A DNA stretch of 64,000 bases from Strix aluco (lineage: Eukaryota; Chordata; Aves; Strigiformes; Strigidae), in assembly GCF_031877795.1 (NCBI RefSeq), contig NC_133934.1, positions 26,477,716 to 26,541,715 on the forward strand. The letters are read 5' to 3'. Under the pieces are notes generated by a model. That model was given only the letters and a program-made list of their open reading frames with translations, had not been told where the DNA came from and searched no databases. Below, in pieces: positions 9,001-43,334 of the stretch. Positions within the stretch are counted from its first letter, which is position 1; each line of letters begins with the position of its first letter. The position numbers and the translations under genes are program-made.

Positions 9001-11114
9001 AAGTTCCAATAATAAGAAAAGCCTTCATTACGAGAAGAGGTCTGGACACATAAATACAGATGTGATATCAGAAAAGTTGCTAATAAGGACACAAATTTGT
9101 AACCAATTAAGTTGACCATGACTTCAATAAGCTAAAAGAACAAACGTTTGCAGGAACTGACCCAAAGCCTGGTGGCCAAAACACCAAGTTACACACACGT
9201 CTTCTATAAGAGATACACTGAGCATCTTTAGATCATGCATAGCCAAGGCATCAAAAAAATCTAGTTTCGAGGACTGATTCATGCCTGAATTTGTACACTC
9301 TGCTAAAGCTGGCTTTTATCATTAAGTTCTATTTAAAGTTGTGGAAAATTATCTTTTAACTGAACAAAACTTTTTCAAGCATTTCCATCTCAAGCACTGC
9401 ATCATCACAATATTCCACATGCCAAAATGAATGTTTTTATAAATCAATTTGATATAAATAAGCATGTATTTCATAAACAAAGACTATATACTTGTTCTAA
9501 AGTGTACAGTACTTCTGATTTTCTTGATGCTTTAGTAAAGCCAATATCTGACAAAAAAAATTCCTCAAACTCAGATTAAGCAGTACCAATGAAATAAGAA
9601 AAATCTTCCTTTGTTGTTTCAGTGATGGTAGATCCACTAGCAAAGTATTTGTTCCCATTTAGTCTACAGTCTCGAGGTAACCTGAATACCTTAACAGTCG
9701 TTCATAAAAAAATGACAGGAAAAAAAAAAAATCTCCTCTTAGCCTGGAAATTATGTCCAACACACACATGACTTCTATTATTCCTATTATCTAGAAGTGG
9801 CACAGCTCACCACTCCAAGTTTTACAACTCAGACAAAATAAAATACCCATTTCAACAAGCACCTCAAAACCACACTTCTCCCCATTTCACACAGACTTCA
9901 ATCCAAAGTCTCCATCCAAACAATCAAAACTCCCAGATTTTCTCCTGTAACTGGCAATATTCCACTGGAGTTTTGAAAATACTAGGCTGGACTTTTCCAG
10001 TCAATAATTTTCAAAATTGTAATTGGACAACAATACTCATTTTCAAAGAAACAACTGACACATGCCTCACCACTCTGAAAGCAAAGCGCAAAGCCTTCAC
10101 ATTTACAGGTTAAGAGATTTTTCAATGTACTGACTAGCCAAGACCATGATTTTTATTTTTCAATATTTGTGGGGTCACTGTTGTGACGGGAAGCAGATCA
10201 TCAGGTGAGAGAACATTTCTGATCTCCAAAAAATTATTACTACATCCCCACCCTGGGCACAGGACCAAATCCCAGGTTATGACAATTTACTGGTCCAAAG
10301 ACCATGGCTTTAACAAACGAGCTGTGCCAATATTTGATCAATGCTCAACTTTATTCTTTATTTTCAGCATAGAGTGAAGAAATGTTTTTAATTAATGGTT
10401 TAATGTTTCCAGTGGAAAAAGGGATTAAAAAAATAAAAAACAGAGATAAGCCTCACAGTCCCCCAGAATACTGTCAAGCAAACAGAGAAGATACTTTTCT
10501 AACAGTCCTTTTTGCTTATGAAAATTTAGAAACTTTGCCAAGCACCAGTTACACTGAATAGGAAAGAAACTATAAGTATTATATCAAATTGCAAAATCTG
10601 AGGCAGGTTTTACATATGAAACAATTTCAAAGTTCCATCTACAAACTCCAGAAATTCATCTTTGCTGTTTCTAAACTGTTCTATCTTTTCAGTCCAGAAC
10701 ACCCTTAACTAGATCTACTTGTTTTCCCCGCTCAACTATGCTTGCTCAAAGTGCTGGAACCAACAGAAACCTTCTACCTTACCACCAAAAATTTTCAGTA
10801 ACATATCCTGTAATTATTACTTATGATTTCACTTCAGACCTCTCCCCAAAACTGTGGATGTGTTTCACATACAAATTAGCAGCTTAATATATCAATTCTG
10901 GCTCAGACAGAACTCTGAGAGTACACTCACAAATTACAAAAATGACTCCTCTTTTAAGGAAAAGCAAGGAAGTGGTATTCCCGTAAAGGTCCGCAGGCAA
11001 GGAGATATTTCAACAATGACAAGGGAACTCCAGCAGTTCTCCTTTCCAGTGATGAAACGTTTACCTTAGGAAGCAAAAGTTGCAGGGAGGGGGGTAGTGG
11101 TCAGGATCGCTCAC
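1..11114 (-). other. PDS5A: PDS5A intron after the first coding exon
   Basis: This stretch lies downstream of the PDS5A donor at 11114/11113 on the minus strand, so it is intronic. I looked for the next conserved PDS5A block (beginning MVVKTFMDMDQ in vertebrates) on the minus strand and did not find it, so the intron runs past the left edge. The DNA is AT-rich, with simple tracts: a 22-base T run at 7442-7463, a short GT tract near 6899-6916, and A-rich tracts near 8447-8470. A 60-codon minus-strand frame at 3596-3778 has protein-like composition, but I recognise no family and there is no support that it is used. No other gene or RNA was seen. Confidence 0.8.
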
Positions 11115-11234
11115 CTTTAACCGTTTAACCACCTCATCGTTGGTAATTTTGTCCGTAATCTCCTTCACTCCAGGAGGATAGTAAATGATTTTACCGTCGG
11201 CAGCAGGTTTTGGCTGGGTAGCAGGGAAGTCCAT
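11115..11234 (-). CDS. PDS5A: PDS5A first coding exon (cohesin-associated factor, N-terminus only)
   Basis: This exon encodes the first 40 residues of PDS5A. The family is nuclear and built of HEAT repeats. It binds the cohesin SCC1-SMC ring with WAPL, sororin and the ESCO acetyltransferases, and controls cohesin release and sister-chromatid cohesion. On the minus strand, ATG at 11234-11232 sits in a strong Kozak context (A at -3, G at +4). The translation opens [15 protein letters not shown] and continues [19 protein letters not shown]. The PPGVKEI-DKI core is shared by vertebrate PDS5A and PDS5B, while the MDF...QPKPA start is specific to PDS5A. The exon ends in phase 0 after Lys40, with donor AAG|GTGAGC at 11115/11114. 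The rest of the protein, more than 1200 residues in the family, lies beyond the left edge. N4BP2 starts on the opposite strand to the right, as in human 4p14. An in-frame extension upstream is possible and is reported as a finding. Confidence 0.93.
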
Positions 11235-11285
11235 CCTGGTGCTGCTGGTTATAAACTTTCCTTCTCCACAGTCCTCTACCGGCCT
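11235..11285 (-). other. PDS5A: PDS5A 5' untranslated part of the first coding exon
   Basis: On the minus strand a pyrimidine-rich tract (TTTTGTTTTCTGACCGATAG) ends at 11286 and makes a plausible 3' splice site, so this exon would begin at 11285. The 51 bases before the ATG contain no stop in the MDF frame. A second AG ten bases downstream (GGTAG|AGGAC) is an alternative acceptor that would shift the upstream frame. The boundary is inferred from splice consensus only. Confidence 0.55.
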
Positions 11286-11755
11286 CTATCGGTCAGAAAA
11301 CAAAAGTTCAGCAGAATGGAAACGACTTTCTAACCCTCTTTTTCCATTTCTCACCCTCAATTCGCAGAAGGCCCCGGTTAGCACCCCGCCGGCTGCGCCC
11401 CCCGCCGCCGCCCCCGCCGCATCCCCCCGCCCCGGGCGGCGCTGAAGCGCGGCCCGGCCCGCCGCCGCCGCCGCTCCCCGCAACTCCGGCCCCTCCATTC
11501 CCCTCCGGCGCCTCCTTTCATTGCGGGGCTGCTCCAGCCCAACACTGTTAGTTCGGAGCCGACGATTTTACAATGAAATTTCGGGCTCGATCGAAGGATG
11601 CCCCGGGGCCGCGGGCTCGTTACGGCCCCAGGGAGGGGCCGGGGGGCGCAATTCCCGGCCCCGGCGGGGGCTCGGAGCCGGCACACCGGCCCCGGAGCCG
11701 GGAGACGAGGCCTAAACAGTTAGGCCTCAAAACTATCAGGAGGCAGAGAAACCAA

Positions 11756-11791
11756 CAGGAGAGGGAGAGGGAGGGAGGGAGGGAGGGAGGC
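11756..11791. repeat. GGGA-rich simple repeat
   Basis: A run of GGGA/GAGG units lies in the PDS5A CpG island, probably in intron 1. On the plus strand the repeated GGG runs could form a G-quadruplex, but this is inference. Confidence 0.8.
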
Positions 11792-12280
11792 GGCGGCGAG
11801 CACAAACAAAACACCCCCGCCGGCCCCCCAACCCGGCGCCGAGCCCCCCGCCCGGCCCCCCCGCGGCGGCGGGAGCCCCCCCGGGGAGGGGGCCAGGCCA
11901 CTCTCCACTTTCCATTTGTTCCCGCAACTTCATGCCCCCTCAGCCCCTCGCCCCGCAGCCCCTCCTCGCCCCGCCGCCCCGCACCCGGCCGGGCCCACAA
12001 AGAGCCCCCCCCACCCCCCGGCTCCGCGCACACGCCCCCGCCGGCCGCGGGCGACGGGGAGGGGGGCAGCGGGGACGGAGGGAAGCGGGACCCGGAGCCG
12101 CCTTTACCTCATGCAGCTCCGGAAGGTGCAGCATTGAGTAGCCTCCGTGCCGGGTGGTCCTCGCCGCTCCGCCGCCACCCCCGCCGGCCGCTGCCCTGGC
12201 TGCTCCCGCCGCCTCCCTGCTCCGCGGTGCGGCGGCGGCTCCTGCTCGGGGAGGGGTGGGGGGAGGGGGAGGCTGCTCGG

Positions 12281-12305
12281 TGGCGGCAGCGGCGGCGGCG
12301 GCGGC
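12281..12305. repeat. GCG/CGG trinucleotide tract in the PDS5A island
   Basis: Interrupted GGC units occur here (tggcggcagc followed by ggcggcggcg). About 17 bases of this tract are missing from the otherwise matching copy in the N4BP2 island, which suggests an expansion or contraction after the duplication. Confidence 0.75.
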
Positions 12306-12427
12306 TGGGGAGAGGGGGAGGCTCCGGCGGAGCGTGCGCCGCGGGGACACAGTGCCGCTCTCCGTCCGGCCGGGGAAGGACAGCCCGGGAGGAGGCTCCG
12401 CGCCGCCCCCCTCCCCCTGCCCGCCCG
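12296..12427 (-). repeat. Promoter block shared with the N4BP2 island (PDS5A copy)
   Basis: This block pairs with 29954-30084 in reverse complement, position for position (coordinates sum to 42381 over the core). I count mismatches only at 12306 (t/c) and 12405 (g/a), and 60 consecutive bases match at 12321-12380. Beyond a small gap on each side, similarity continues to about 12273 and about 12461. Relative to PDS5A transcription it reads in the same sense as the other copy does relative to N4BP2. Confidence 0.93.
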
Positions 12428-12594
12428 CCCTCGGGCCTGGGGCCGGGCCCGCAGCGCCGCCCAGCCAGGATCCCCCAGCCCCAGCCGCGGGGCAGGGGCG
12501 AGGCCGGCCAGTAAGTCTCCTACCCCGCCGAGCCCCGCGCAGGGCGGCGGCGGCGGGCAGTACCGGGCACGGCCGCCGCAGCGCTGCCTCCCCC

Positions 12595-12606
12595 TTGGCG
12601 CCAAAA
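12595..12606 (-). promoter_or_regulatory. E2F-like palindromic site upstream of PDS5A
   Basis: The minus strand reads TTTTGGCGCCAA. It contains the E2F consensus form TTTGGCGC and a 10-base palindrome TTGGCGCCAA. It lies about 170 bases upstream of the shared block, in the expected promoter position. E2F control would suit a cell-cycle cohesin factor, but no functional evidence is in the sequence. Confidence 0.4.
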
Positions 12607-15600
12607 CCGCCGGAGCGGCCGGGCCGCGGCCCTGAGGGCCCCTCTCCAGCCGAGCCCCGACCCCGTGGGGCTCTCCTCCTGGGCGGCGGGGGGGCAGCGG
12701 CCGGCTCCGAGGCCGAGGCCTGGGCGGCGTGGGGCCGGCTGCCGGGGTTGCCGGGGAGGGGGCCGCGGGTTGCCGGCTGCAGGGCGGCAGCGCCGTGTGC
12801 GGGAGGGGGAGAGGCATGTTAGTGCTTCCTCACGGAGCTGGGCCGCTCATGGCCGCGCGGGCTTTTCTGGCCGGTCCCTCGGGCAGCCGGTGACGGTCGT
12901 GAGGCCTGAGCGGGCGTGAGACATAAGAAAACAGGGGACAACGGTGCGTGGGGTGGCACGGAGAGTGCTGTGGCGGGTAGGAGCAAATAGCCCTTCTCCG
13001 GGCAGGCGGGCGGCAAGAGCAGCATCCACGCATTGACGTCCAAATTCTTCTTCCTCGTTGTTGGCAAATGAGTTTCTCCAGCATTAATTTAGTTATAAAT
13101 CTTCAGGAGAAACTTGAACACACAGACCGAAGGAGCCCTTGCCAGCCAACGCAGGAAATCCTTCCATGCAAAATGTCTTTATAATTTAATATTCTTTCAT
13201 ATTTCCAAGAGATGGGGTATGTCTGGAAAGTCAGTAGCAAAGTGGGATATATCTGCCTGTTTTGAATCTGCATTATGTGCCCTGCATGTCTGAAGTATGG
13301 GTGGCTAGAAGGTGTTTTCCAGATGCCTGCCCTGTGCAGAGAAGGTGCGTGGCAACTGAAAGATGACTTCTAATTGATTAAGACTAATTTAGGGTCTTCA
13401 GCTGACTATTCTTGGTTACCTGAACCAGCTAAAATTATCATTCATCTCAGTTTTGAAAATCTCTAATGAATTTTCTGTAGAGCAGATCAAAGGCGGGCGG
13501 CTGGGACCAGTCTGCGTGGAAGGATGGGTTTCTCCACAGGGGCTGCGTGTGTGTGACAGGGGCCTTGCTGGGCACAGCAGAGGTGCTGGTGTGGCCTACC
13601 AGTCACACAGGAGAGATGCAGGAGGGCAAGGGGATGGGAAGGGAATAAGTAAGCAGGATTATGGTGAAGTATGCCAAAATCCAGATGTGCAAGGTGTGGA
13701 AGGAAAACATAAAGACTGAGGAGCTCTCAGGTACTTCTGGTGTAACAGCATGTGAATAGGAAACTGCTCTCCTACTCCTGTGTTCCTTGTCTCCCTGCAC
13801 TGTTGTCTTAGGGGAGTTAAAGCCTTGAATGCCCATAGCTTCTGTGAAACCAGCTCAGAAGTGTTATAGTGAAAATGACTGAGAGTTGCCAGGAGCACTT
13901 AGGAGATCTCACACACTGATTTAGAAATCTAGAAGGGTGCTGCCAGACAAGGCATTTAAATCTGGCTGTGAGTCCAGGTTTAGATAAAATGATTCTCTCC
14001 AGACTTAAGGATCGGTGGATTGGGGCATTCACAACAGACAGGTGACCTTAAGAGTGGGATACATGATTCAGTTTTAACAAGGTTGTACTGATTTAATAAA
14101 CAAAGCCAACACCAAGCATTTAATCTTTTTCCTAATCCAAACTTCAGTGGCCATTTAGATTTGCCTTAGAACTGAAGTACTCAGACTAGCTATCAACTCT
14201 TACTTGTTGTCAATAAAATAATATGTACTGTCAGAAGTATTATACCTTTAACAAATCTGTTTTTTCTACCCTTATGTTTATTACATTAGGTACTTTGCTT
14301 CCCAAATCAAATGACTAATACAAACAATTAATTTGGTGTAGATTCCTTATTTTTAATATACTTGTATTAATACAATAAATCAGAAACAAATCCTAGAAGA
14401 TTATTCTGTAACTAAAAAAAAGAAAGTATGTATCAAAAACCTATATGGGCTGTCTTAAATAGAAAAAGAATGCAAGTTAGTAAAAATGATGCAAGAAACA
14501 AATTTAAAGTGACCTTTGCTGAGGTTTTTTTATTACCAAAGCATAAAGCTAGGAAGATGTTAGGCAGGCTTCTCTTTGGGCATAACAGTAGTATTACGGG
14601 TGTTATATTCTAGAAATTTCAACTAAGTCTCAGAACTTCCTGGGTTTTGATGTTTATTTTCAAGTATTATTTTCTTATTACTGAAAAGCAGTATTTTATG
14701 TGTATCATTAATATGACCTACAATGTCATAATGTTTTCTTGTAATCTCGTGATTACAACTTTTTCATGAAGCTACACCATCTTTACCTAGAAATATTTAT
14801 ACAACAGGTCATGAAGTAGGAATAAGAATGAAAAGGTAGAGGGCTGTGTTCCCACAACTTGTTTTTAGTCCAAGGACAAACACAGTGCAGAGCCTCTAGT
14901 ATGCACTTCTAGTCACTTTTATTTTCCACTGAAGAATAAGATAAACTCTTGCATTCTAAGGCATGTGTACAACTGTAACTAACATGTAGTTAGATGTAGT
15001 AGTTCAAAGATTTCATTTGAAAGTGCCAGGCAAAGTTTGCTCATTTAATTAAAATTTTACTTCATCTTGAGCAAGTTGGTTGTGAAGCCCTACACTGGAG
15101 TATTCTTGGTTGTGGACCAAGATCTCTATCTTCTTGCAGACTTTAGATAGTGAAGTTAGCAATTATTGTGGAGTAATGTTCAAAGATTTTTAATTTTCAG
15201 GATTTCATATCCGTAATACAACATAGAAAAAGTCCTGAAATACTTCAGTAGGAAGCTGAACATCTAGAAGTTCACACTGGATTTCTGCTTTCACAGGTAA
15301 CGGTTAGTCAGCAGTATGAGAATTCTGACCACCCTTCAGTGTCAATGTTGTTGGAGTCCTTAGCTATTAAATGCAGGTGCAGTTGCTACTGGTACACTGT
15401 TCCGCTCCTGGAATAATTTGCTGTCTGACTGTAGGTTCTGGTATCAACACAACCTTGCTGACATACCGTAGGTCCACTGAGCAGGAGTATTTTGCCAGCA
15501 TACTAGTGTAAAACTGTCAGAGTGCTCCTAGGATAGCCATTAATTTAGATGCTGTTAGTCAGATATATGGTGTCTTGAATGAGTCTTAGACAAATCCCGA

Positions 15601-18600
15601 TTAGCAGAGTGGTTGAGAGAGGAGTAGGTGCAATTCTGTAAACATGGGATGATTAGGCAATGGCCCATCATTTCTCTGAGGACAAGCTGCAGGGATTCAT
15701 ACTTCTGCACCATTTGAAATTCTAAAGGGCTAAAACAAAGCCTGTGGTTCTGATATCACACCCAATTAAGGGAGGTATGAATGAACACTTAGCTGCCAAT
15801 TAGTGTGAATATATGCATGGTATTTTCAGAATGTGCAAACATAAAAGCTTCAGATAATCTGACCTGTGTACTCTTAATCTGAATAGTCCTGAAATCTGCT
15901 CGCAGATATGATTACGGCTGCTAGTGTCTGGTTTGTTGCCTTTGCTTGTTTGACCTTCACCCTTCTAATTTCAGCAGACAGCTGAGATCTGACTTGGACT
16001 CTGCTTCTTGTACAGCTGTAGCCAGGTTCACATGATCCCTTGGGTTCTAATGGATGGCTCTGTCTAATAATAAGACCCAATCCTTTCGTCTTTATCCAGA
16101 TTTTATTGAGTGCCTACCTGGACAAATTTATGTTGGAATTTATTTACTTCTACTCCCATTATTTTTATTGGAATGTATTTACTCCAATCTGTTGTTTATT
16201 TGTTTATTAATATATTTTAGACTGCCATTGCAAGTGTAATTTATAAGCAGACTGAAATAAAGGGTGCTGAACACTCTTGTGGGACAGTCGTGTGGGGTGC
16301 TTCTTTCTCTGTATCACGTCAGGAGAGTAAAGTACCAAGAAAAGAAGAATTTACTGGTAGGGGAAGTAACGCAGCACAGGGTTTTCAGAACAAAACATCT
16401 TTCAGGTGAAACAGAAGAGAGTATGGAGTGATTACTTTAAGCACAGAAAATCCCTTAATTCATGTTGATTAAATTAAGCTATGTGCATATCTTTCCAGGA
16501 ACAGCTTAACGGTTGTCCTCAGGTCTTTGTTAGTACAGTAAGGGTAGTAATAATGATCAAGAACTAAATAGTCGTATCAAGACAGCAGTGTGTCATGAAC
16601 TGCAGAATAAGTCATATCTGTCAGTCGGCTGGGCAGACAAGTAAGAAATTCTATCTGGTGGGTTAGGAAAACACTTGTCTTCCTAATAATAGCTGTGCTC
16701 TTGAAAGCTTCTGCTTTGCAGAACCAGGTGGTGGAGTGTGGTCCTCCACTATTGAATTTTTTAAGTCACAGTCAAATAGGTCAAGAGGGGAAGGAAAAAA
16801 AAAAAAAAGCTTAATTACTTGTTTTCAACTCTAGCATTTAGCCAGTTTTTGACATCTAGCAGGTTGCTTTCTGGCAGGTTTCTTCCTAATCATGAATGCT
16901 TCCCCCCCTTATGAAAGCCTACTTATTTTTTCAATGATACACATTTTTTCCTGCAATACAGCAGTTCTCTGAACTCAGTAAAAATCAAACCCTGGAAAAT
17001 AATTTTTTGCCCTCAGTTTTACACAGAAGCTTTCTCTCTTAGCTTTCTGACTTTGATATTAGTCCATGTTTCCAGTCATCTTTCCTCTTTGTCCATCTGT
17101 TGATTCTCTCACACATGCAGTTGCACACAGCTCCTCCAGTTAAAATTATAGTTTTATATGTTTGCTTCACTGGATCTTCAGAGATATCTCTGAGGTTTCT
17201 AATTAAACTTTGTAGTGTAGCATATCTTTGATAACAGCACCTAATTGTTTTAACTACCTATTTTTATAAAAGAATTGGTGTTTTTTACATCTGCTGTAAA
17301 TTGAGAAGAGTGGTTACACTCACCTGAGTCAAAGGTGGGTTTCTTCACAATGTGGGTTGCCATAATGAAAGAGCTCCAAAAGGTATCCCATTCCAGAGAG
17401 TATGTGCAGTGAAATTACTCTCATCTAAGAAGAGACCAAGAAGCGTGTTTTGTCCTGAAGACTTACATGTGTCTTCCATGATCTACACTGACAAAGCAAA
17501 TCCATGAAAGGGTGGAGGAGGACTTGTGTGTATTATCTCATGAAGATGGTCAGCTGGAGGCACAAAGGGCTTCCTTGGAAAAGAGAAGCGAGTTCCACAA
17601 CTTGCTGATTTTTCATGTTCTGAATAAAGGGAAGGACCAAATATGTATGGATTATATACTCCTTTGAAACTGATCCCTACCCATATCTAAATATTATTTT
17701 GCTCTGGTTTCAGACAGCATAACTTTCTCCTGTGCTGTCTGAAACTGTCCTTATTTTGAGTCATACTTGGAAATAGGGCAGTTATACTTGCCACCAGACT
17801 TTTGTGGTATCAAGGCATGTTCAGAAATGACAAGAATTATCATTGTCAGTATATTTAAGCCATTGTGAAAAAGTGTATCCTAGCGAATACACTTGTAATT
17901 TACAAAATACTGTATTGACTGAACAATTGCACTTGTTTCCTTTGCTTGCAAGTAAAGCAAAATCAATTTATTGGCACCTGCATATTGGTGATTTCATAGG
18001 AGAATTTTTAGAAGCCTCCTTGATCTATTGCTAGTTTTGAGCATTCAGAAACTGAAGTCACAGCAGCCTACTGCGTGCCATCTATCCACCTCCTTTCTAG
18101 CTGCTCTCTTTTACGATGACTTGTCACCATTCACTCCATAATTACATTCTCAAGGTTATTTCCATCTCTACTCCTGATGTGTCCAAAGCACATACATTTA
18201 TACCTATTCATTTCTGACAGCCAAGTCTACTTTTCTCCAATAATATATTTAATATGAGCATTTATCATCTTTTCTGCCCAGGAGATATGCAAGGGTCTTC
18301 ACTTGCACCACATCTCAAAAGCTTCAATTTTCTTCCTGTCACTATCAATAATTTCACAGAATTCACATTCATAAGTTGCTACAGTGAAAAATTAAGCATT
18401 TCACCAGTCAAATCTTTCTATTTTTTTAGGTGAAATGTTTTTTTTTCAGGCTTTTGTAAGGGAAGCCATGGGTGGATCAACTATTCTTCAGATTTTTCCA
18501 GTTTCTATTGGACAGTTTCTGATTGGATAAATTTGATCCCAGGTAATTGAATTTATGAACAATCTCTGTAGCTAGACCATTAAGCATGAAGTTAGCTTAT

Positions 18601-21600
18601 ATTCTATTTTTATTAATTAAGTAAAGTTATTGTATTTATGGCACACTCAAAAATAGCCTGTATTTTTCATTAGCCTCTTATTGACTCTCTAATACTTGCT
18701 GCACAGCAGAAGCAGTTGTGACAAAGAGCATTACGGCATCAGTCGAAGGTCACTTAAAAGGATTCCATCCATTTCAAATTTAACTTTTCCATTCTGTAAA
18801 AACCTTCCCAGATTTTTTTTTTTTCCCCCAGCCAGGCTGCAAGGAAATCTGCAGTTACTCATAGCTGTAATAAAGGTGTATGACTCTTTATGTTTGCTTG
18901 GTATTTTTTCAAATAACAAGACAGATTTGGGGAATTTCTGAGTGTATGGGACTGCTTAGAGGAAATACCACTGAGGAAACTGGGAAAAGTTTGGTAATTA
19001 GCCCATGGCAGCTACCTACTGGAGGGAAGACAGTATGAGTAGAGCCTCTCCCTCTCCCCCATTAGATAAGAACTGTCTCATGATCTGTTAAAAAACGAGA
19101 ACATGTGTGGTACTAACAAATTCTAATTAAGCTCCTTCATGAAATGTATCGATTGTATTTGTGATGCTGCTGTTCCTAATTCTTTCACAGATACGATGTC
19201 TGCTGCTCGCAGTGAAGAAAAGAATGATAAGAAACTTTACAAATGAATATGAACTTGGAATTTACCATTATGGTCAAAGAAAGATATTTGATGAATGGAT
19301 CTGCAGTCTCAGAGCTGTACTGTAATGATGGGGTCATTTCAGGATGATGGATAGGTATGTGGTGTACTATTCAGAGGCTTAAAAAGGGGTTGCATTTATC
19401 AAACTCAGGGAGGCATCAAAGTGTTTGGGTATGATTCTGTGAGCAATAGAATCATTACAGTTTGCCTTTGAACAAAGTCAGGAAATGTATTGATCATATA
19501 GGTTTATGCTGCTAGGAAAGCAACTAATGATGGTTCAGTCAATGTGTTTTGTGAATGGCTTCAAGGGATAATAATTAAAATGTTACACCACTACACCATT
19601 TGGGAACTTGAATGTGGAAGTTGGAATTTCAAACCCTTGTAAAGAACAATTTGCATTTGAATTTACAAAATAAAATTACTTCTTTGGATTGTGCAGCTTT
19701 GTTCACTTCATCCTTACGATTCCACTTCAGTTAACGCACTGGATATTTTCATCCACACAGGTCATCAGCCAGCATGACAGAGGAGCACACTGACAACATA
19801 GTGATCCAGAAGCAGGGAATACTGAGTATCAGTGGAGGATGATTTTCCTAAATTCAGGATATGTGGCAGCAGAGAAGGTAACTAAGGTTCTTTGAGTCAG
19901 TACTTGAATGGGTATTTAACAAAGCAGACAAGGAATTAGTGTCTGAAGAGAGGACAGAGTATCAGGTATTGAGTAGACAAAGCCAGAAGTAGGCTAGACA
20001 AGGGAAGAGCATATATAGAAATGAGAAGAGTGTAGTCTTGACAAACGTGAATGCTTAGTAATACAAAAGCTGGTTCACAATAGTCAGATTTCTAACCAAA
20101 AATTCTCCATGATGGAATATAAAAAAGTCCATGATGGTAGAGTGATCGCTGAAGGTGATGATATTAAATGCCAGCAGAGGGATTACTACTTGTAAGTAGA
20201 CTGATACGTATCCACTTACAATTTCACCAACATTTAATACCACTATTTATATCCTATCTGAATTTGGCAAGGCAGCTGTGTGCTCTGTGTAATACACTGT
20301 AACTACACTGTATCAAGCACATAAACACTTGCTTTCTTACTCTGTACTGTTCTTTTTATCTTCCAGACACTGCATACTTATACCTAATCATTTTTATTTT
20401 CAGGGAAGCGCGTGCTAAAATTGTAAACTTCCTTTATTTGAGACCATTAAAGAGAGAGACAGAGACTTTTGGCCAGCATGTGAACATTTAAGTCACTACT
20501 TCAGATGTACTCAGTTTTTGCTTATGGAATGCCACTGATCTATATTTAATCAATACTTTTTAAACTTCCTTCAAGATCTGCTCAGCAGCCACCTCTAACC
20601 CAGCACACGATGAAGAAAACTTGAGTGAACCAGTTTTTTCATCCATTTTCAGTATCATCTAGCTTGACACTGCCTGGATGCACTCTCTTAGGCTTGTATC
20701 CTTGCTTCAAAAACTGTAACAGTATGTTCTCTCACACAGCTTCATAGTAAAAAAGATTTAAATTAAAAAATATGTCAACAAGTCTATTGGATTCTATCAC
20801 ATTCTGAATATACTAAGAGAACAGAATGATGTTACTTCTAGGAGAGAAAAACTTTAGCAATAGATCCTTAAATACCCTAAGGAAGCAGCTTCATATAGCA
20901 AGTAAGAACACTAAAGGAAGTACACAAATGCTGAAGTAATCTATGAATAAAAAAATGCAAGGGCTTTATATTTTCCTGAATTTAAGAAATTTGCAATAAT
21001 AGTCTGTCTTACCACACCTTTATTTTGGTGTTTGTCTCTGTGCTCCTTTCTAAAAGGTTTGTCCCTTGGCCCATGGCTGGGTATGAGAAATGTGAACACA
21101 AGAAAAGGTATGAAGGAACAGGAGAAATAGGAGGAGCAAAGATGAACACATGTGCTAGAGAATCTGCAGCTGGCTGAGCATTAGGGAGTTTCACGTGAGC
21201 AAACAAAAAATGTAGAAATAGAAGATGAAATAAATAGCCTTGAGTGAATTGCAAGTGTATCTTAAATATCATAATTTGTGATCAGCAAGTACAGTTTTGC
21301 CAAATTCAAGCTGAACTGGAGAAATCAAATTCTGAGAACAATATCATTAAATGTTCTGTTATATATCTTAAAATTAGTTACACCTACAGTTCATATTTAC
21401 TTAATATAAAGACGCCTGTCAAGTTTGATTTTGGCTTTGCATATTTGGAAGCTACAAAACCAATCTTTTCTGAAACTAGCTGAACAAACTTGCAAGAAGA
21501 TTTTTAAAAAACAGAACATACTGTTAAAATTCAGAGTTAAAAAGTGGATTTCTTTTGTCCCCTGTTTACATATGAAGGGGAGATCCGGGTCAACTGGAGA

Positions 21601-22868
21601 GCTACATCAAATATATTGGAGCTTTTGTTTCTGTGTACATGACCTGCCTGCTGTTTTGATGCTGCCATGTAAATGTCTTCTTGCTGAGTCTGGGGAGGAA
21701 CATATGTGTGACAGTGGCTGCAGTTGCACTTGGGACTGACGCAGCCTGCCATCCCAAAGGGGTGAACCTGTCTGTGAAGAGTGTTGAAAGGTAAATGAAA
21801 CAAACTTAACTTGTGGAAGTGGTGTTTGTTTTCTATTTCAGTCCTAATAATAGGTTTAAATGTAATCCACATAGGGATTTGCTTGTATGTGTCTTTGATC
21901 ACTGCTGAATTTGAAAAGTAGATGTATAACCAGCAACAATTAGGAGAGTCCAAAAACATTTGCCTTTAAGAGTCATCAGAGTCACAAACTGCATAATGCT
22001 GCTGAGAAAAATAATTACCAACATGTGTATGGATGAGGGGGAAATTGGCAATTTGTTCTGCTAAGTATTTAACCTTTTAATTTTCTACTCTTCAGGACTG
22101 TTTAGTATATATAGTTTATTTTTTGTATGTGGAAAATAGGCAAGTTTATAACAAACACTGATGTAAAGATAAAATTCTTACTTGGTTTTGAGGTACGCAT
22201 TGTTCTCTCCTAACCATCACCACTGCACAGAAGAAGAAATCATAGCTCAGAAATTGAAGGACTACATAGAAAATATGAACTACTCCCATTTCAGTGTTCT
22301 TTTAAGTTAATGTGTTCTTTCTTCCAGGTTTTGTGGAATGTAAACAGAGGAATAAAGTAATTGAAAGAGTTCAGTGTTTGATCATCTATTTGAAGAAAGC
22401 TTAAACATGTTTTCATGCTGGCTGTATCAACTGTTTTCGGGGTTTTGTTTTTGGGTTTTTTTTAGTAAGTTGTCTATTACAGATGGGCCCAGATCCAAAT
22501 TACACCACCTCTGCTCCATCCTGAATTGTGTGTATGAACTTAATCTAGTTACAGATACCAATCTGAATGTCATGAGCTAGGGCAGGGTGAGGTGGAGCTT
22601 GTCTTAAGATCTGACTCCCTTGTTCTCTGGACTTGGATTTGGCATGAATTTGGCCGGTCCCAGCTAACTAATTTTCACCTGGTCCCCAAATAAATCAGAA
22701 ACTACACTGTCCTGTTGCAAGGAGTGACTGTCATTTTATGTCTCTGGCTTTCTAAATTTGAGTTTCTTCTGTTGCTGATATTATTCACTGGGAAAAAATG
22801 TGGCCCCATTTCCAGTGACAGAGGGTGTGAAATAAAAAGTAGAAGTGATAGGTGGATTTTAAAGGGAC

Positions 22869-22889
22869 CAAACAAACAAACAAACAAAA
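22869..22889. repeat. (CAAA)5 microsatellite
   Basis: Five consecutive CAAA units lie in intergenic DNA. Confidence 0.9.
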
Positions 22890-24210
22890 GAGGGTCAGAA
22901 TTTACAGGAAAGCAAAAGAAGGCCTTGTTCCCCATTCATTAGTGACCAAATAGCCATGGAGTCGGTTTCATATCTAAATAATTAGGTTCTATCATGTGAC
23001 AAAGAGTCACATACTGAACAAAGGATTTCCTTAAAAAAAAAGAAAAGTAGTCTATACAGCTGTTTTTAAATGCACATCACTCTCTGCTCCCTTCCCCCAT
23101 CTACTTGGCTTCTTGTTTCAGCCTAAGACATGAAGCATACAAGTTATTCAAGTTTACAAACTAGTTAGTGAAATTTAATTCATAAATGAGTGCTAGTGGG
23201 TTTAGACCATAACAAGTTCCCTAATTTATTTTTATAAGCAGTTGGAGTAATTCACAGATGTTTGTGACAGAGGTCAAGCACAAGGGTTGCTGTAGCTAGA
23301 CAGCTTTTATGTAACAAATGGTGAGTGAGGAAAATTGACACTAAGCAGGATACCTGCAAGATACTTATATATCGTAGATTTTTTAAGCCACTGAATTGTG
23401 TGGTATCAGAAAATTTTGTAAAATACGCAAGTCTAGATAGGATCTGTACTTGGAAATAAGGCCTCTATGAAACTCTTTGGGGACAGAAATAAGACAGCTT
23501 TTTATATTGTTTTAATCTTTTATTAATCGAAGGTCAGTCACGGTGAGGTAAATGGATTTGTAAATCACTTATGATTGGCAAGCAATTAACTTCTGGTAAA
23601 TGAATTGTACAGACAATGGAGAAGAGTCTATCTTCACAGGTAAAAGCATTTGTTCATTCAAGTGACATTAACAGATGATTGAAACTTGCCTAAAATTCAG
23701 GCTTGTACTTAACATTAGATCTACTTAGAAATTCCGTTCTGCAGCAAGGTCCAATGTTTTAACATTTGAGAATTTCTGAATCGGAGCAAACAATAGACAT
23801 CCCAAAACTTCTGGTAGAATGAAAGTACTGGGTTTTACTTAGAATCACTGAAAAGTTTTAATGATTTTTTTTCCAGTATTTTAGTAAAGTGAAATGGACC
23901 GATAATCTTTAACATCATAAACCCCATAAAATACGAAAATACTTAAAAGAAGCCAAAATTTTACTAGAAATAATATTACATAGTCAAAAGAAAACAGTAA
24001 TGGATAGATTTTTTTCCTTTTCTTTATAATGTCAAATTGACTTTTTCAATAAATGGTTTGGTTTTGAGCGTTTAATTCTGCATCTCAGCATGACTTGGTC
24101 ACAGTAAGTTAGTTCTGTCTTAACCTAGAAAATTTTAGTCCAGTTCAAAATCAGTGCTGTACTCCAAAAAACAACTGCCTGAAGGCAGTTAACCTTGCAG
24201 ATTGGACACA

Positions 24211-24243
24211 CCTCCCCACCCCACCCCCCCCACCCCCCCCCCC
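24211..24243. repeat. C-rich tract with G-quadruplex potential on the minus strand
   Basis: Cytosine runs of 4, 4, 7 and 11 or more are separated by single A residues. The minus strand therefore carries four or more long G runs with one-base loops, a strong G-quadruplex pattern. It stands alone in AT-rich intergenic DNA. Confidence 0.85.
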
Positions 24244-24752
24244 GGAGATTTTCTGTCCTGGGGCAGTTTTGTTCTTACAGCTCTGGCTTTACCATTGAAT
24301 AGAGGCCATTAATGATACTCTTCATTGGAAACGTCCTGTTTCTTGATCAGCATACAACAATTGTTGTGTAAAAAACAGTAAGTAAACTTTCACATCCTGG
24401 TCAAATTCCAGTTCAGATAACAGCACCCTGCTTAGAGTTCCGACAGTTTCAACTGGGTAGTATCCGTTAACCTGCTGGGTGGTATTGCATGGTGTAGTTA
24501 AACAGCTGTTGCATTTTGTTTGAGAGGTGGTCTCAGCTAACTGATGTATAAAGTGGATCCTCCATGGCTGGTTTTACAAGACATTTCGGGGATGGTAAAA
24601 GTTACAGAAATGTCAAACATTATTCATTTTTTTTTTCTGTTAAGCTTCATCTAATTACTTCAGTGATATAAATGAAATCTGATTTTTTAAAATAATACAG
24701 ATATGCAGTTTTACTGCTAGCCTTGTTCTTAGACCATGTCTCAAATACTCAA

Positions 24753-24777
24753 ATCTCTAAGATCTCTAAGATCTCTG
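24753..24777. repeat. 9-bp tandem repeat
   Basis: The unit ATCTCTAAG is repeated about 2.7 times in intergenic DNA. The array is short and probably arose by slippage. Confidence 0.8.
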
Positions 24778-25913
24778 ATATTAAATTTGCCGTGGGATAG
24801 GATCAATGCAGTTTTAAAAAATAAAGGCAGTGATATTCAACAGATAAAAACATGACAGTTACAATGGAAGTCAGCTTTTTACTTTTTATCATGTGCCAAG
24901 GAAGCATATTAGGCATTGTTTGGTTTTCCTTTCTGCAGTTTAAACAGATCAGGATGGATTTTTGATATCCATGAAATTTGACATATCAGATTGATAAAAA
25001 TAGCATAGCAGAGAACATCCAATACAGGAATCAGATTCACCACAAATCGAAACTGAAGTGTGAGCTTATTCCAAATTCAGGAGGTCCTTGTAGCACTGAG
25101 GCTTCTGTCAGCTGTATAAGCATGACCTCATTCTTTGCTTGCAGAGAAGGTACAATTAAGTATAATTCTTTACTTCTTGGATTACAGCATTTATTGTCAT
25201 CATGTCTCTGCATCTCCTTTCCGAAAGCCCAAACATCTTTGTAGTTTGTATGTTCTGGCGATGTTTAGTATATCAGGTGTAATAAGCAAATTTGATTTCT
25301 GTTTTGCAATATATCTGGAGTATCTCATCCAAATGAAGACTAGTAATATGCTGCTTTAGAATGCCTTTAAACAAGAATTTGAAAATTTACAACTATTAAC
25401 GTTCAGCAGTAACCTTGTAAACTCCTCTGATAGTTTACTGATGGGTAGGTGAATCAAAGTACTGATTTGTTAAGCAACTTTTCAATTCATTAGTGGTAAT
25501 CTGGAATTAGGGTCACCCGCTCACCTAAAAAATGTGATCCTATTGAGACCATCAGAATTTTTACTCTTGTCTTCAGTGGGGCAAAAATTGCCCCATGATC
25601 TAGATTTTTTTCTGCTTCTAAATACTATTTTTTCCCCATTTAAAATAATGCTGAAATAGAACCCTGTATAAAGGGAATTAAGGCATTATTTTAATATAGG
25701 TGTAGTAAAAATGTACTATTTGGAATGAAAAAATGTGTATGTGAATTAACTAAAATTACTGCAGTGATACCAACCTGTTTCTGCAGTTAACTATGGAATC
25801 GATAGCTATGTGGAACAGAAGATCAATATACTTCAAGTATAGAAACCAGATATGGAGTTCCTTTATGGAGATAAAACACCACAATTCACTAAGTCAAATG
25901 ACTTAAATCTGAA

Positions 25914-25929
25914 GGGGGGGGGGGGGGGG
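25914..25929. repeat. G16 homopolymer
   Basis: Sixteen consecutive G bases lie in AT-rich intergenic DNA. The true length may differ, because such runs are prone to sequencing error. Confidence 0.85.
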
Positions 25930-28900
25930 AGGAGAAGAGTCACGTGAGCTATTCTGCAAACATTTATTTTTACATAACTTCTATCCTTCTTCTCACCCAC
26001 CCCGTTTTTGTTTTTTTTTTTAATTAAGGAATTAAATTTCTACTTCAGAAATCAAATTCTGGCTGAGGGAAGAGTTATCTTCTGTAGGAATACAAACTCA
26101 AAGATTGTGGACAAAGTAATATTAACTGGAGACACAGATACTCCAAGCAGCCAAGTTAAACATCTTTAAGCAGTATTAAGGTAAATCCATTAAAAAAAAA
26201 AAGGGAAAAGCTAACACTTTTTATTTCCCTCAATGGTAAATGAAACCTAAAGCTGGCAACAGAATGTGGAAGGCTCCTTAGGAAGAGGAAGGGTTATAGC
26301 ATGGAGGAACTGAATCAACTTTTATGAAAATGGTTTCTGCAGGAACTAGATGAGGGCTCTTTTCATCTCTCCTTTCTGAAGGAAGGAAGGAAAAACCCAT
26401 GATAATTTGGGGCTTTGATTGTATATATTAATGGTCCAAAATAAAATTCTGAGTAATGATAAAAACTATACCTTAATTTCCTGGAAAGATAACTTATTTC
26501 ATATTTCCTGCAGGCAGGCATGAATTTTTAATGCACCCTAATTTCTCAGGCATTTTCCTACAGTATTTATTATTGTATATTCAGTATGTTACTGCAAGTA
26601 AAAATAAGTCTTTAAAACTGACAAAGTTAAACATGTCTTTCTTGCTACACCAGAATGTTCTTCAAACCAAAAGTTTAGCTGGAAATTGTTTGTGCAAATC
26701 AATATCTAATCTAATCTTTTTTAACTATAGATCCTCAAAGACAATTTGAGCATAGAAGAAAGGAAATTACAATTTGCTGAGTAGTCTTAGGCTGTATATA
26801 ATCAGAAACATTAAAAGCGACTGACATTTCCTTGTTTTTATGGCCCAATTCTGGTAATAATACTATTTTAATATGATTTATAATATAAGCAAGAACATAG
26901 TATTTTTACTTTGAGAAGGCAACATTGTAGAAACTAAAATGGAAAATCTGCTGTTAAAGCATTCAACGAGGACCAGACTAAACACTTGAGCCAAACAGCA
27001 CAGATTACATGCTGTATGTTCAAGCCACTCTAAGTAAAACTAAGCCAACTGTAGATTTAAGGAGAGACAAAGGAATGGGAAAAAAACCCCAAAACAATAG
27101 CAGATAATAGGTGATTATTGTGTTACGTTTGAAAAAATTTTGTGAAAACTCAAAAAAAAAGGACACACATACTTGAAAGAACCTCTCTTACAGTGATTAT
27201 AATTATCTAGATATCAAAATCCCTCCTATTTAAAGTGTTAACTGTGGTAGCGAGAAATCTGCCAGTACCCAAATTAGTCTGGCATTTTCATGGTGTCAAA
27301 TACTGTAATATGTACAACTGGCAAAGAACAACATAGTTTCATGCATCAAGTGCCAGCAGCAACACCCCACTAGCAGTGCAGTTTAATGGAGGCTATCAGA
27401 CTCGAGCGTACTGAAAACCTCTCTCTTCCTCTTTTCTGGCAACCTTAAAAATATAAAGACACAGTCATTAGACTGGAATTTACATGACCTATTTTTCCAA
27501 ACCTATGATTAACACATTACTAGCATCACACCCTTAAAGAATTTTTTTTTTTTTCTCTGATACTTGTCCAGACACTGAATGCATGAAGTAAGGAAACAGT
27601 TCCTGGTACATCCATGAAACCATCACTTGACACCACATGCGCACACAACTTCTGATCAAGGCTTTTCCTTCAGATTTCTGGACATGTACAATATCAGTGT
27701 ATTGAATAATTATTTATTTTCCTTTTGTGAGTCATGGCAAGAGACAGCCTTTTGAAACTTACCAGCACATCCTGTGGATGACTATGTATACACTTTACAT
27801 ATTGTATTAGAAATGTAGATGTTTGTCCTTGTTTATTTAAATATACTACAAGATAAGCACTAAAATAGCAAAGTGACAGGCAAACTAGCAATGCCTAAAT
27901 CAATTTAATTCCTAAAACATTAAATGCTTTGAATACAAATTTCAAAATTTCTAACATTACTTTTATTGCAAAATACATATAAAACGTATTTGCCTTTCCG
28001 TTGCTGTGCTACCACTTTGGGACTGTGATCCCTACAAGCTCTAGAGAAATTACTCTGAGCACCCTTCTGCAGTTTTCAGAAGGCAACTATAGTGAACTAC
28101 CCATGCATAATTAGTTCACCTTAGAACTAGCTATTTTTGAATTTGCTTATTCTTTATTGGCATTAAAACTAGAGTTACATCTCTAATAATGCAAACAGGT
28201 CAGTCCTGGTGGCAGAGGGAAGGACTCTCCAGGCCCCAGAAGGAAGCAGCAGTGGGAGAGCAAGTGACTGAGACACAAAGCTGGCCGTGACTTCTTGGTC
28301 TTTCTTTCGAAGCATAAGTAGCGCTTTAGTAGTCTGCTGAAGGCCACTTCTCGTTTCTTTGAAGGAAAGTGAAGGACAAATGATGGTGGGGGATGCCACC
28401 TCGACCTTGAATGGGGTGAATCACAATGTGAGGGACCTTCGGCCTGGGAGACAACCTTACTCCCCTCGGGGGAAAATGCTTCTCCCCTTTCACAGGAGTG
28501 TTACTGCTTCTGTTCCCTAGGAAGATCACAGTGGGGCACCTCCAGCCAACGTCCTCCTGAGGCATTGTGCCCTGATGGGAGGTGGCTGAATACAGATGGC
28601 AGGGAGGTTATCTCGAGTCAATGGTGCACCCATCTTCTTCTGGGAATCAGATGAACAAGCAGAAAGAAGTGGAGACCCTGCCTGTTATCTTGCTTGGACA
28701 GGCAGGGAGGCAGAGCTGACAAGGAAGCTTATAGCTATGTAATGAAGTCCTATCAGTAATGGGTAAACTTCATCAGTAATTTTCCAACTATATTTTAATG
28801 CCCGTTTGTTGACCGTGAAATTTCTCAGAACAATAAACATCTATAAGATTACAAAAAAGTTTCCCAGTAGAACCTCCTCATCTTGAATGGGGTTTTTTGG

Positions 28901-29667
28901 GGTTTTTTTTTGTTTGTTTTTTTAAGAGCTTTTCCCCTTGTTGATAAATTAAAAACTCTTGTTCAGGTGGATTCACAGCAGTTCTAACTTAAGAGCTGCT
29001 ATCATCATCTCAGTCTGTCAGGAGCATGTCTCTCTTCCCTTTCATCTTTCCATAATCTTCCATTGTCCATCCCTGTCAAATGTCCGTTGCTTGTTGCAGA
29101 TAATGAAGCCTTCTCCTAACCAGTTGCTCCTCTGTTCTCCTGTTGCAGCTCATACCCTCCACTGCTATCAGAGATGCCAGATCCCACCAGCCTCTCCTCA
29201 GCTTCCTTAAAAACTCTTCATCTCTTGTCTGCTTCTTACATGCCGTTTCTCCTCCGGCATCAGCCCGCAGATCCACTGCATCATTCTGGCCTGTAGGAGC
29301 CTTCTCTTCTGCGGCGACTTTAGGAATTGCTTAGTAGAACAGGGCAGCAGCACCAGGAATTAAACATTCATCCTTTCTGTTACAAATTTGAAACCTGTCA
29401 CTACACGGCTACTAGCTTTCACTACACTCTGTTATCTCCCAATTGTTTGCTGAACTCGCCTACGCCCTGTAACCAGCAATGTGCCCTCTACAGGCAAGGC
29501 CTGTCTTTTCACACCGGTTTTCCCACACCGGTAGAGCACAGTTACCCTTTGCGAAGGTGAACACGTGAAGCTGTATCGGCACCCAAGTTTTATCGGTAAC
29601 CACTGGAAAAGTTGGCGAAAGCAGCCTCCCGGGGAGGAGAGCTGCCCTCAGCTGGCAGGAGGCGGTA

Positions 29668-29679
29668 CCCCCCCCCCCC
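29668..29679. repeat. C12 homopolymer
   Basis: Twelve consecutive C bases lie at the left edge of the N4BP2 CpG island. Confidence 0.85.
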
Positions 29680-29953
29680 GCTCCTGCGGTTCTTCTTTTC
29701 CTCCTGCAGTGACCCTTCGCGCGGGGCAGGTGCCGGCGAGTCTCCGCAGGACGTCGGAGGCCCGAGGCCGGATGCAGGCCCCGCCAGCAACCGCCTCCCG
29801 CCCGCCCCAGCTGCCCGCGGCACCCGAGGCCGGGAGCGGCCGCCGCCCCCGCCCACCGCAGGCCCGGCCTCCGGGGCGGCCCCTCGCGACGCGGCGGCGG
29901 CGGCGGGCGCGGCCGGGCGAGGCGGGAGCCGGCCGGGGCGGCGCTGCGGGCCC

Positions 29954-30084
29954 CGGGCGGGCAGGGGGAGGGGGGTGGCGCGGAGCCTCCTCCCGGGCTG
30001 TCCTTCCCCGGCCGGACGGAGAGCGGCACTGTGTCCCCGCGGCGCACGCTCCGCCGGAGCCTCCCCCTCTCCCCGGCCGCCGCC
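29954..30084 (+). repeat. Promoter block shared with the PDS5A island (N4BP2 copy)
   Basis: This is the reverse complement of 12296-12427, with two mismatches in the core. Homology resumes after a deletion of about 17 bases on the left side (to about 29934) and again on the right (to about 30100). It ends about 60 bases before the donor at 30145. No known mobile element signature was seen in it: no poly-A tail, no terminal repeats and no CR1 tail. Confidence 0.93.
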
Positions 30085-30145
30085 GAGCAGCTCCCCACGC
30101 CCTGCGTCCGCCGCCGGCGGAAGCGAGCGAGCCGAGCGGCGGGAG
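29954..30145 (+). other. N4BP2: Probable N4BP2 non-coding first exon (5' end undetermined)
   Basis: The plus strand carries the donor GGGAG|GTAAAGG at 30145/30146 inside the CpG island. The next well-supported exon is the ATG exon with acceptor at 43212/43213. The transcription start cannot be read from sequence. The start given is only the left edge of the shared block. Other GT sites in the island, such as CCGT|GTAAGC near 30794, could also serve as donors. Confidence 0.45.
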
Positions 30146-30250
30146 GTAAAGGCCGGCGGGCTCTGGCGCGGAGCGGCGGGACCGGGGAGGAGCCTCGCCC
30201 TCCCCCTGCTCCCGATAGGGTGCGGGGGCCCGCGCTGTTCGCCGCGGCCC

Positions 30251-30316
30251 CCCGCCATCTCGGGGGCGGGAAGGCGGCCCGTCCCCGCTATCTCGGGGGC
30301 GGAGAGGCGGCCGGTC
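30251..30316 (+). repeat. 33-bp tandem duplication with a YY1-like site
   Basis: Two 33-bp units start at 30251 and 30284 and differ at a few positions. Each contains the core ATCTCGGGGGCGG followed by GGCGGCC. The first unit has CCGCCATCTCGG, close to the YY1 consensus (GCCGCCATNTT). The second has CGCTATCTCGG, which breaks the invariant CCAT core. The pair lies just downstream of the proposed first-exon donor. Confidence 0.8.
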
Positions 30317-33300
30317 TCTGCGGCGGCTGAGGGCAGCTTCCCCCCGCTGGCCAGCAGGCGGGCGTGCGGGAGCCCCCCCGGCCGCCTCCCCGTATCGCGG
30401 CGGGCCCGGTGGCGCTGAGGGGCCCGTCCCCAGGGCGTCACTGGAGAGGAGTTGCCTGCGGGTGGGAGGGGAGGTGGCGGGGCGGGTGCTGCGCGGAGGG
30501 CCCGCCCGCCAGCCGGGGGCCCGGCCAAGGGTCACGGGTCCCCGCTAGCGGCTCCCCTGCGCGGGGAAGGGGCCGGGGGAGCGTTGTCGCTAGCAGCGGG
30601 GGGGCCTCTCGGGCTGAGGCCGCCGCTCGGGCCTGCCCTGCCCTGCCCGGGGGCCTTCCTGTGGGCCTCGCGGCTGGAGCTGCCGCTGGGTCGCCGCTCC
30701 CCGCCGCTGTGGTGAACGCTACGGGCGCTCCTCAGCGTGAGGCGCCGGCTGCCCGCCCTGCCCCTCTGGTGGCTCTTCCTCGCCCGTCACCGTGTAAGCG
30801 CGCTCGGCGGCGGCCCAGGTGCCCGGCCTTCCTGTCAGAAACACCGGCTCCTGCCCCCCGCGGCCCCGGGGAGGGCCCCGGCCTGTCCTGCCGGCAGCGG
30901 CGGCCTGTGTGGCGGCACCGATCGCTGGAGGAAGTGGGTGGAAACGCTTCGACTGTTTGTCCTGAGCAAACTATGCGTAGTGCCTGTGAACTTTAAAAAG
31001 CATCTCGCAAAGCATAGAGCCCCGCAAGATAAATTCACCCCGTGCGAAATGAAATAAAAAGATTTTTAGTAATTTAAGGGGATGTTCGTTTTGAACAGTC
31101 GAGAGCTGCTGAAACGTGTACATCGTGTGGTTATATAAAGTTGTGACTTTTCGTAGTGTAGTACTCCCACGTGCTTTGGACACGGTCTGCAGTTTGCTGA
31201 TCAAGTGCCATGAGATCAGAGGGCCTTCGGAGGAGCCTGACTTCAAAGGAGAGGAAAAACCCCTATATTCACTATTACTTTTCTTAATTCTTACTCCAAA
31301 TAACTGATAACGGTTTGACTCTTAAGAGACACTTAAAATGTTTTTATACAGTGTCTTGACAAAGTTTAGTATGCATCTGGAGTCTTTCGGTAGGATGTTG
31401 CAGTGAAAGATGAGAATAATTCATATAGGACTTAGGCAAAAAACCTCCAAAAGTATTTTGGATATTTCAGGTAAAGCAAAAGAACAGAATCAGGTTGCTC
31501 TTCATCCATTTTGCCTTCACTGGAATAAAAGCCTTAGGTAATATGTCTTGGGATATGATTGGAGAACCAAAGGTTGAGATATAAACCTGAAGCTAATTAC
31601 AAAAGTGCAGAAAAGTTTAAGAATGGTATACATTTGTAATCATGAGTGTTTTAGCCCTGATTCATCCGGGGTACAGTCACCATGAGTAGGGTGGTGCTTG
31701 CTTGTGTCATGTGTTTGCAGCACTTTCAATTTGCAGTAGTTTGTGTGCCTAGATGATGTGAAGAGCTTGTGAAGGAAATTTAACAGTATCAAAGCACATC
31801 TTAAAAATCCAGTAATTTATTCTTTATAGGTTTTCTTCTGTTGTGTTTTGGTTTTGTTTTTAACTGTGGAGTTGCCCTGATTTTTTGTGGTCCTGTTTAT
31901 ACTTTGTGGTATTTTTAAGAACTCTCCCCCTGTTGTATTAATGCATTTCAGCTGGGGAATACACTGATGTAGAGGGAAGTGAGGTTCTTGATGTACCAAT
32001 GTGAAAGTGCAATAGTACCTGACAAAAATGTTAGCCGAGGCATGGTGTTAGGAAATATCCATGGTATACTTACAGCTGTTTCAGCTTTATGGTGTAGGTG
32101 GATTGTCACCTGTGATTTTGTCTGTTTTACAAAAGAGAATTATGTTATCTTGAATTAGTGTATGAACATGTTGTAATAGGGACTTTAGGGGGTTGTAGTT
32201 CTGTGGTGTTGCATGGTCTCTTGCCTTTCACTCCTATTTGTGTACTGATTTGTAGTCTATGCTAAATGGCTGATGTAATCAGTCTAATTATTATTTTAAA
32301 TAGAGTTCTTCTGTGTGTGAATTTAGCTCTGGTAAAAGTTCCTGAATTATTAATCCTTGAGTTTTAGGAAGTTGCTGCCTTTGTTTTTCTTACAGAGGCT
32401 CTGCTACTATAAAAATGTCAGTAGGGCATTAATTAGCTGACAGTTACACTGCCTTTCTGAATTAAGTAAGGCCGTACATTGATACTTTCTCCTGAACCCA
32501 GCTGTGGGTAGGGAAGAGGTTAAGTTTTCCAGCTGTTTCTTCTCAAGACTCCACTGGGGATTTTCGATCTACCAGTGTCTTGGTTTATGTAACTGATCTG
32601 TGTTCCATCTGAAAAATTGCCTGTGTTAACTCAAATGACCATTTAAAACTATTTGAATGGACCTGGCTGATGTTTTTTACAGTCATATAAGGTGAACTCA
32701 TGTGAACTACTTTCTGAACGTAAATGACAGGTTTAAGTCTCTATCAAGTAAGTAATGACAGTCATTTGATGGCTGTAAGCTTTTCATTGATGTACCTAGA
32801 TCAGGATGAGGTCATCTGGCTGTGGTTTACATTAAGCTGAAAGTAGTTTTTATCTTTTTAATAGCTGTGTAATGGCTGTATGTGTGCCATGTTCAGCTGG
32901 CCTAGTAGCTTCAGCAATGGAAATGCATCTGAACATACAAAGTAGATACAATTGTCCTGATAGGTCTGTGTAATGTAGTTTCCAGCCTAGGACCTGATAC
33001 GTGATTTTATTTTTTTTCCCCAGAAAATATTTAGGATGTCTACATGAATAAGCTGTTCTCATTCCTGTCTTGCTTTCTTCATGTGGTTTGGTTTCTTGCT
33101 TTTTTTTTTAAGTCATAATTGTATGATGCATCTTGAATCAGTGTGAGTTGGCTAAGTGTATTGTGTGTCACTATAGTATGTTCCTGTTTCGGAAATTCTG
33201 GAGTGGTTCTCATGTTGCTGTTGTATGTGGACCACAAGCAAAGTTCACAAACTGCTTTATGTCTCTTTCCAACCTGACTTCTCAGCTTCCTGATGTGGCT

Positions 33301-43212: not shown

Positions 43213-43334
43213 GTCTGCTATTTCTGTTATGCATAGCCCAGTTACGAGAGGCTTTTTGTGATTTCTGAGCTTGGTGCTGTCAGCCTCATGTGAACAAACT
43301 AAAACTAAAAGCAAGCCGATTTTTAGAAAACAAA
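43213..43334 (+). promoter_or_regulatory. N4BP2: N4BP2 5' leader with two short upstream ORFs
   Basis: The acceptor (ctctttttttccag) ends at 43212. Within the 122-base leader an ATG at 43229 opens a 10-codon uORF ending in TGA at 43259-43261. At 43288-43293 an ATG is followed at once by TGA, a minimal start-stop element. Both precede the main ATG at 43335. Such elements usually reduce or delay main-ORF initiation, but the effect here is inference. Confidence 0.6.

Follow-up and report, generated by a model that had tools for sequence, protein, structure and literature searches.

Divergent genes with related start regions are known from bidirectional CpG-island promoters, and gene conversion is also known to keep inverted repeats alike in concerted evolution. 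When a staggered-break inversion takes place, the inverted segment is left with inverted arms at its two ends, a pattern that template-switch repair can produce as well; at Drosophila inversion breakpoints such arms measure 59 and about 540 bp (PMC7584159). Here we describe a pair of inverted arms in a 64,000-base window of the genome of the owl Strix aluco (C4:26477716-26541715 of the source assembly), which contains no N. The arms are two copies of a 132-bp block located in the CpG islands of two divergent and unrelated neighbouring genes, named here PDS5A and N4BP2. The kind of event that leaves such arms is already known; the PDS5A/N4BP2 pair itself is real and unusual. Judging from its sequence, it probably goes back to a fairly recent event in which about 150-167 bp were duplicated in inverted orientation during the repair of a break or of a replication fork.

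The inverted block and its copy number

The plus strand of 12296-12427 aligns without gaps with the minus strand of 29954-30085, 130 of the 132 columns being identical. In the sense of transcription, the former is the minus-strand copy of the PDS5A island and the latter the plus-strand copy of the N4BP2 island. A sequence-only reading of this window had proposed a 132-bp inverted block with two mismatches, which is borne out by the alignment, with the second copy ending at 30085. It had also given 60 bases as the unchanged stretch; this was too low, as the longest unchanged run measures 98 bases. The pair is the sole inverted match listed when the window is compared with itself (E<=1e-3). Chance likeness of two GC-rich islands was ruled out: in simulated island pairs (300 pairs per Markov order, for orders 1 to 3) no shared run exceeded 19 bases, against the 98 observed. 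The interval between the arms (12428-29953) is 17526 nt long and would itself be inverted under the staggered-break explanation discussed below.

Placed as it is in both islands, the block reads in the transcript sense of both genes, as had been claimed for it. Since the genes are divergent, any inverted copy made from one start region to the other lands in the transcript sense, and the orientation needs no special explanation.

We searched the window's own assembly (1,414,655,264 bases, 202 contigs) and found the block in two places, both in the window (E<=0.001), although counts are lower bounds in this search, which skips very common words. This agrees with the earlier view that the block is not a high-copy repeat, and an interspersed repeat or transposable element was rejected on the same result. 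With the right island as query, the partner scored 233 bits and the best other locus 73.4 bits among the 20 matches listed; with the left island as query the values were 233 and 63.5 bits among the 15 matches listed. At a length of 132-167 bp the pair does not belong to the class of segmental duplications either, for which the usual threshold is 1 kb and 90% identity.

A second PDS5 gene lies on C2 near 113.3 Mb. Going by the N terminus, we take the gene on C4 to be PDS5A and the one on C2 to be PDS5B. In the 50 kb upstream of the PDS5B exon (C2:113325001-113375000), the block is absent from all three CpG islands (best score 36.2 bits), and no self-match was found within these 50 kb (E<=1e-6, low-complexity filter on). 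A module common to the PDS5B neighbourhood is thus unsupported, in a comparison that included no search for an N4BP2-like gene there. The lack of the block in the islands of this one paralogue suggests that the module is not a visibly old PDS5 feature.

As a control, 24 GC-rich loci (276 pairs) were compared with each other: 19 loci resembling parts of the two islands, the three PDS5B-side islands and the two islands themselves, with L034 left out because it overlaps L033. The first, third and fourth longest shared runs in this set (202, 96 and 96) stem from stretches of N. Once N is disregarded, these three pairs share at most 29 bases, and the pair ranking after them also shares 29, against 98 for the PDS5A/N4BP2 island pair. 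Similarly, the best other pair in BLAST among the control loci reached 54.7 bits against 233 for the block pair. The N runs in question, which total 241, 94 and 200 N in L013, L033 and L040 respectively, give false long matches in naive comparisons.

An exact 20-mer was absent from both the viral and the prokaryote contigs that were checked for stray animal DNA (0 and 0). Six 14-mers of the block, looked up in paper texts, gave a single match, to a PCR primer for human miR-892a, which is due to chance. There was no Rfam match at gathering score within the window, and a known RNA element was rejected on this ground.

Gene models and start regions

The gene names rest on likeness to the human proteins, on open frames and on the PDS5 exons of C4 and C2. 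The minus strand of C4 carries PDS5-family exons from 26,454,691 downwards, outside the window. The open frame at 11064-11285 (minus strand), which includes the first coding exon, is what we take to be the N terminus of PDS5A by its likeness to human PDS5A; compared with the human protein, this N terminus seems shorter and to lack some residues before ADGK. On the plus strand, the frame at 43269-43556 (MPRRRKTGGSPSRKNG...) contains MPRRRKTGG, presumably the start of N4BP2, again by likeness to the human protein. A Pfam scan of eight frames (0.01) gave matches for four of them, all in the N4BP2 region: DUF7817, DUF7818, DUF7816 and DUF1771. The match of the frame at 57603 lies below the cut-off of its family. 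No match at 0.01 was obtained for the frames at 11064 (PDS5A), 43269, 45352 and 47399 (N4BP2), so that neither of the two start frames carries a Pfam match itself. The long N4BP2 coding frame also contains a direct repeat of 37 bases at 54681-54750 (92%), which encodes TEGDINRNTLET and TEGDISRNALET.

The PDS5A CpG island covers 11151-13150 and the N4BP2 island 29401-31100 (400-base windows, GC>0.6, CpG observed/expected>0.65). By sequence only, each island holds a probable exon 1 ending in a GAG/GTAAAG donor, with the GT starting from 12107 in PDS5A and from 30146 in N4BP2. The remainder of this exon between the block and the donor, a probable 5' untranslated region, spans 12108-12295 (minus strand, 188 nt) in PDS5A and 30086-30145 (plus strand, 60 nt) in N4BP2. 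The earlier statement that the block sits just before the first-exon donor therefore fits N4BP2 better than PDS5A. Further into the N4BP2 island, a tandem pair of 33-base units (CCCCGCYATCTCGGGGGCGG...) that are 88% alike occupies 30250-30315, which would be the beginning of intron 1 provided that the donor at 30146 is correctly placed.

Several promoter-like motifs are present in the block. The PDS5A copy has two GGGCGG boxes and the N4BP2 copy one. An initiator-like BBCABW motif gave one match per stretch scanned (first base at 12356 and 30025), and in both copies a G-quadruplex motif extends across the upstream edge of the block (12430-12406 and 29948-29975). No TATA, CCAAT, full NRF1, ETS or YY1 match was found in the block, and no CTCF consensus either. 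The DNA of the block is so GC-rich that such motifs argue only weakly for a start site. The block may plausibly serve as a common promoter/first-exon module of PDS5A and N4BP2. Of the overall interpretation proposed earlier, the inverted duplication common to the CpG islands of unrelated divergent genes is supported, and the module function is a plausible candidate role.

Within the PDS5A island, the inner flank also contains the E2F-like palindrome TTGGCGCCAAAA (12595-12606), which occurs once in the window on the plus strand.

Divergence and origin of the two copies

Both mismatches within the block (12405/29976 and 12306/30075) are transitions (C/T and A/G), and each of them gains or loses a CpG. 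At 12405/29976 the PDS5A copy has GGGCGG, likely an Sp1-type site, where the N4BP2 copy has GGGTGG, so that a GC box was either removed from the N4BP2 copy or made in the PDS5A copy. All 92 non-CpG sites are the same in both copies, with a 95% upper bound of 3.2% on their divergence. Two CpG transitions combined with no non-CpG difference speak for an event, or else a conversion, of recent date. At common avian substitution rates, and if the block is free of constraint, the copy or the conversion may be several million years old at most. Constraint or GC-biased conversion would imply a longer age.

The homologous tract is longer than the block. In the PDS5A island it runs from 12296 to 12462 (about 167 bp) and in the N4BP2 island from 29936 to 30085 (150 bp); of the 150 bases that align, 148 are identical. 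At the inner (upstream) edge, an exact 18-base extension (12445-12462, minus strand) matches 29936-29953 (plus strand). It is separated from the block by 17 bases (12428-12444, minus strand) that are present on the PDS5A side only, either as an insertion there or as a deletion in the N4BP2 copy. The score of the inner 60-base flank was reached by none of 1000 shuffles; beyond the 18-mer it was reached by 55 of 1000, which is marginal. At the outer (downstream) edge the copies have GCC runs of unequal length followed by GAGCAGC in both. Here the score of the 60-base flank was reached by 203 of 1000 shuffles and is not above chance, and beyond GAGCAGC (from 30092 in the right-hand stretch) it was reached by 651 of 1000. 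On the outer side the similarity is at chance level, with the edge inside the GCC run; on the inner side it goes on for 18 bases past the indel and is marginal from there. Similarity past the gaps had been claimed for both sides and has statistical support only on the inner one, while the claim that the flanking DNA is unrelated fits the sequence beyond the 18-mer and beyond GAGCAGC.

We infer a single, fairly recent rearrangement, which would have put a GC-rich stretch of about 150-167 bp from one gene, inverted, into the island of the divergent gene next to it, 17.5 kb away. The copied DNA would most likely be the core promoter and 5' untranslated region of the donor gene. The changes since then would be two transitions at CpG sites, a 17-base indel and, probably, a shift in the length of the GCC run, and both genes may now start from nearly one core promoter sequence. 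Our preference for a duplication by repair combines two routes, one in which the 17.5 kb separating the arms were inverted and one in which they were not.

The route with an inversion is possible. Repair at the two GC-rich islands would have flipped 17.5 kb relative to the ancestor, and the blocks would be the filled-in staggered overhang of one breakpoint, left as inverted copies at both ends. Near-identical inverted arms are indeed found at both ends of the 17.5-kb segment, as required by the model (PMC7584159), and no third copy turned up in the genome search. The geometry of an inversion would also leave each end with a promoter in the correct orientation, and the two genes would have exchanged the upstream half of their islands. 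A very weak point against such an exchange is that TTGGCGCCAAAA next to PDS5A would suit the own upstream region of a cell-cycle gene.

The route without an inversion is somewhat doubtful taken by itself. It assumes a templated insertion resembling microhomology-mediated break-induced replication (MMBIR), in which a replication fork that switched template close to the block's G-quadruplex-prone edge would have written a promoter stretch of one island into the other. The tract is short, its flanks are near chance beyond it and a G-quadruplex motif lies at its edge, all of which is consistent with such copying, and the 17-base indel may reflect a stretch skipped in the process. On the other hand, a random insertion would have had to land in the start region of the neighbouring gene and in the right sense.

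Several observations weigh against a recent duplication of a shared promoter. A function in promoting transcription is suggested by position together with weak motifs, without the TATA, CCAAT, full NRF1, ETS and YY1 matches looked for, and the N4BP2 copy has just one of the two GGGCGG boxes of the PDS5A copy. The outer edge falls in the GCC run, where exact placement is impossible. With one genome compared, neither the inversion nor the direction of copying follows from the data. Finally, the inner 33-base flank is less alike (27/33) than the block (130/132; Fisher p=0.0009), a comparison that depends on the alignment by which this flank was picked and in which the exact run makes up 18 of the 33 positions.

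The last point suggests that the duplication may be older and its core converted. Homogenisation of an old inverted duplication by gene conversion between the islands, i.e., concerted evolution, would account for a core with two differences in 132 columns next to an aligned flank with six in 33, and also for the indels that border the core. We nevertheless consider it doubtful, as the similarity beyond the 18-mer is marginal on the inner side (55/1000) and that of the outer flank is at chance (651/1000), and as 98-132 bp is short for efficient conversion. An assembly or gap-filling error, by which a GC-rich fragment of one island was pasted into the other, is an unlikely source of the pair: N runs do occur in three other GC-rich loci (L013, L033 and L040) and are not necessarily assembly gaps, but the window has no N, the assembly comprises 1.41 Gb in 202 contigs, and the two copies, set in different flanking DNA, are told apart by two substitutions and an indel. 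Selection alone, holding two old copies as a conserved regulatory or 5' untranslated element, would fit the position of the block in both start regions, but is highly improbable given the missing Rfam match at gathering score, the absence of the block from the three PDS5B-side islands and an unchanged run of 98 bases, which presumably exceeds what promoter motifs by themselves would need.

Should the recent inverted duplication hold, one gene could have had its promoter replaced or doubled in one step from an unrelated divergent neighbour, the PDS5A start region passing to N4BP2 or the reverse; we put this forward tentatively. Small rearrangements between divergent genes could then pass a working promoter from gene to gene, and divergent pairs could swap core promoters without a non-functional intermediate. 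If the promoter has recently become common to both genes, the locus is a natural experiment in which nearly the same core promoter stands at either end of a 17.5-kb interval, each time in front of an unrelated gene body.

Comparison with known systems

No description of the PDS5A/N4BP2 pair was found in the literature on their promoters, which was judged mostly by title and the start of the abstract. Likewise, nothing on this pair appeared among the papers listed for promoter duplication, and searches on conversion between promoters, bird microinversions and duplicated promoters at inversions gave no paper.

The likeness to Drosophila inversion breakpoints lies in a segment that has a near-identical inverted arm at either end (PMC7584159). 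The owl locus differs in that one arrangement is known and the arms span two probable start regions. With inverted insertions attributed to MMBIR or to fork stalling and template switching (FoSTeS), the pair shares a short inverted copy, a nearby template and a GC-rich edge with a G-quadruplex motif. Such an insertion would be expected to show microhomology at its junctions with the sequence present before the event. As in concerted evolution, a near-identical core lies between less similar edges, but the PDS5A/N4BP2 arms are much shorter, and their edge past the 18-mer is just marginally above chance. Bidirectional CpG-island promoters resemble the locus in having divergent genes with related start regions; here, however, the islands are separate, 17.5 kb lie between the blocks and each island has a copy of its own.

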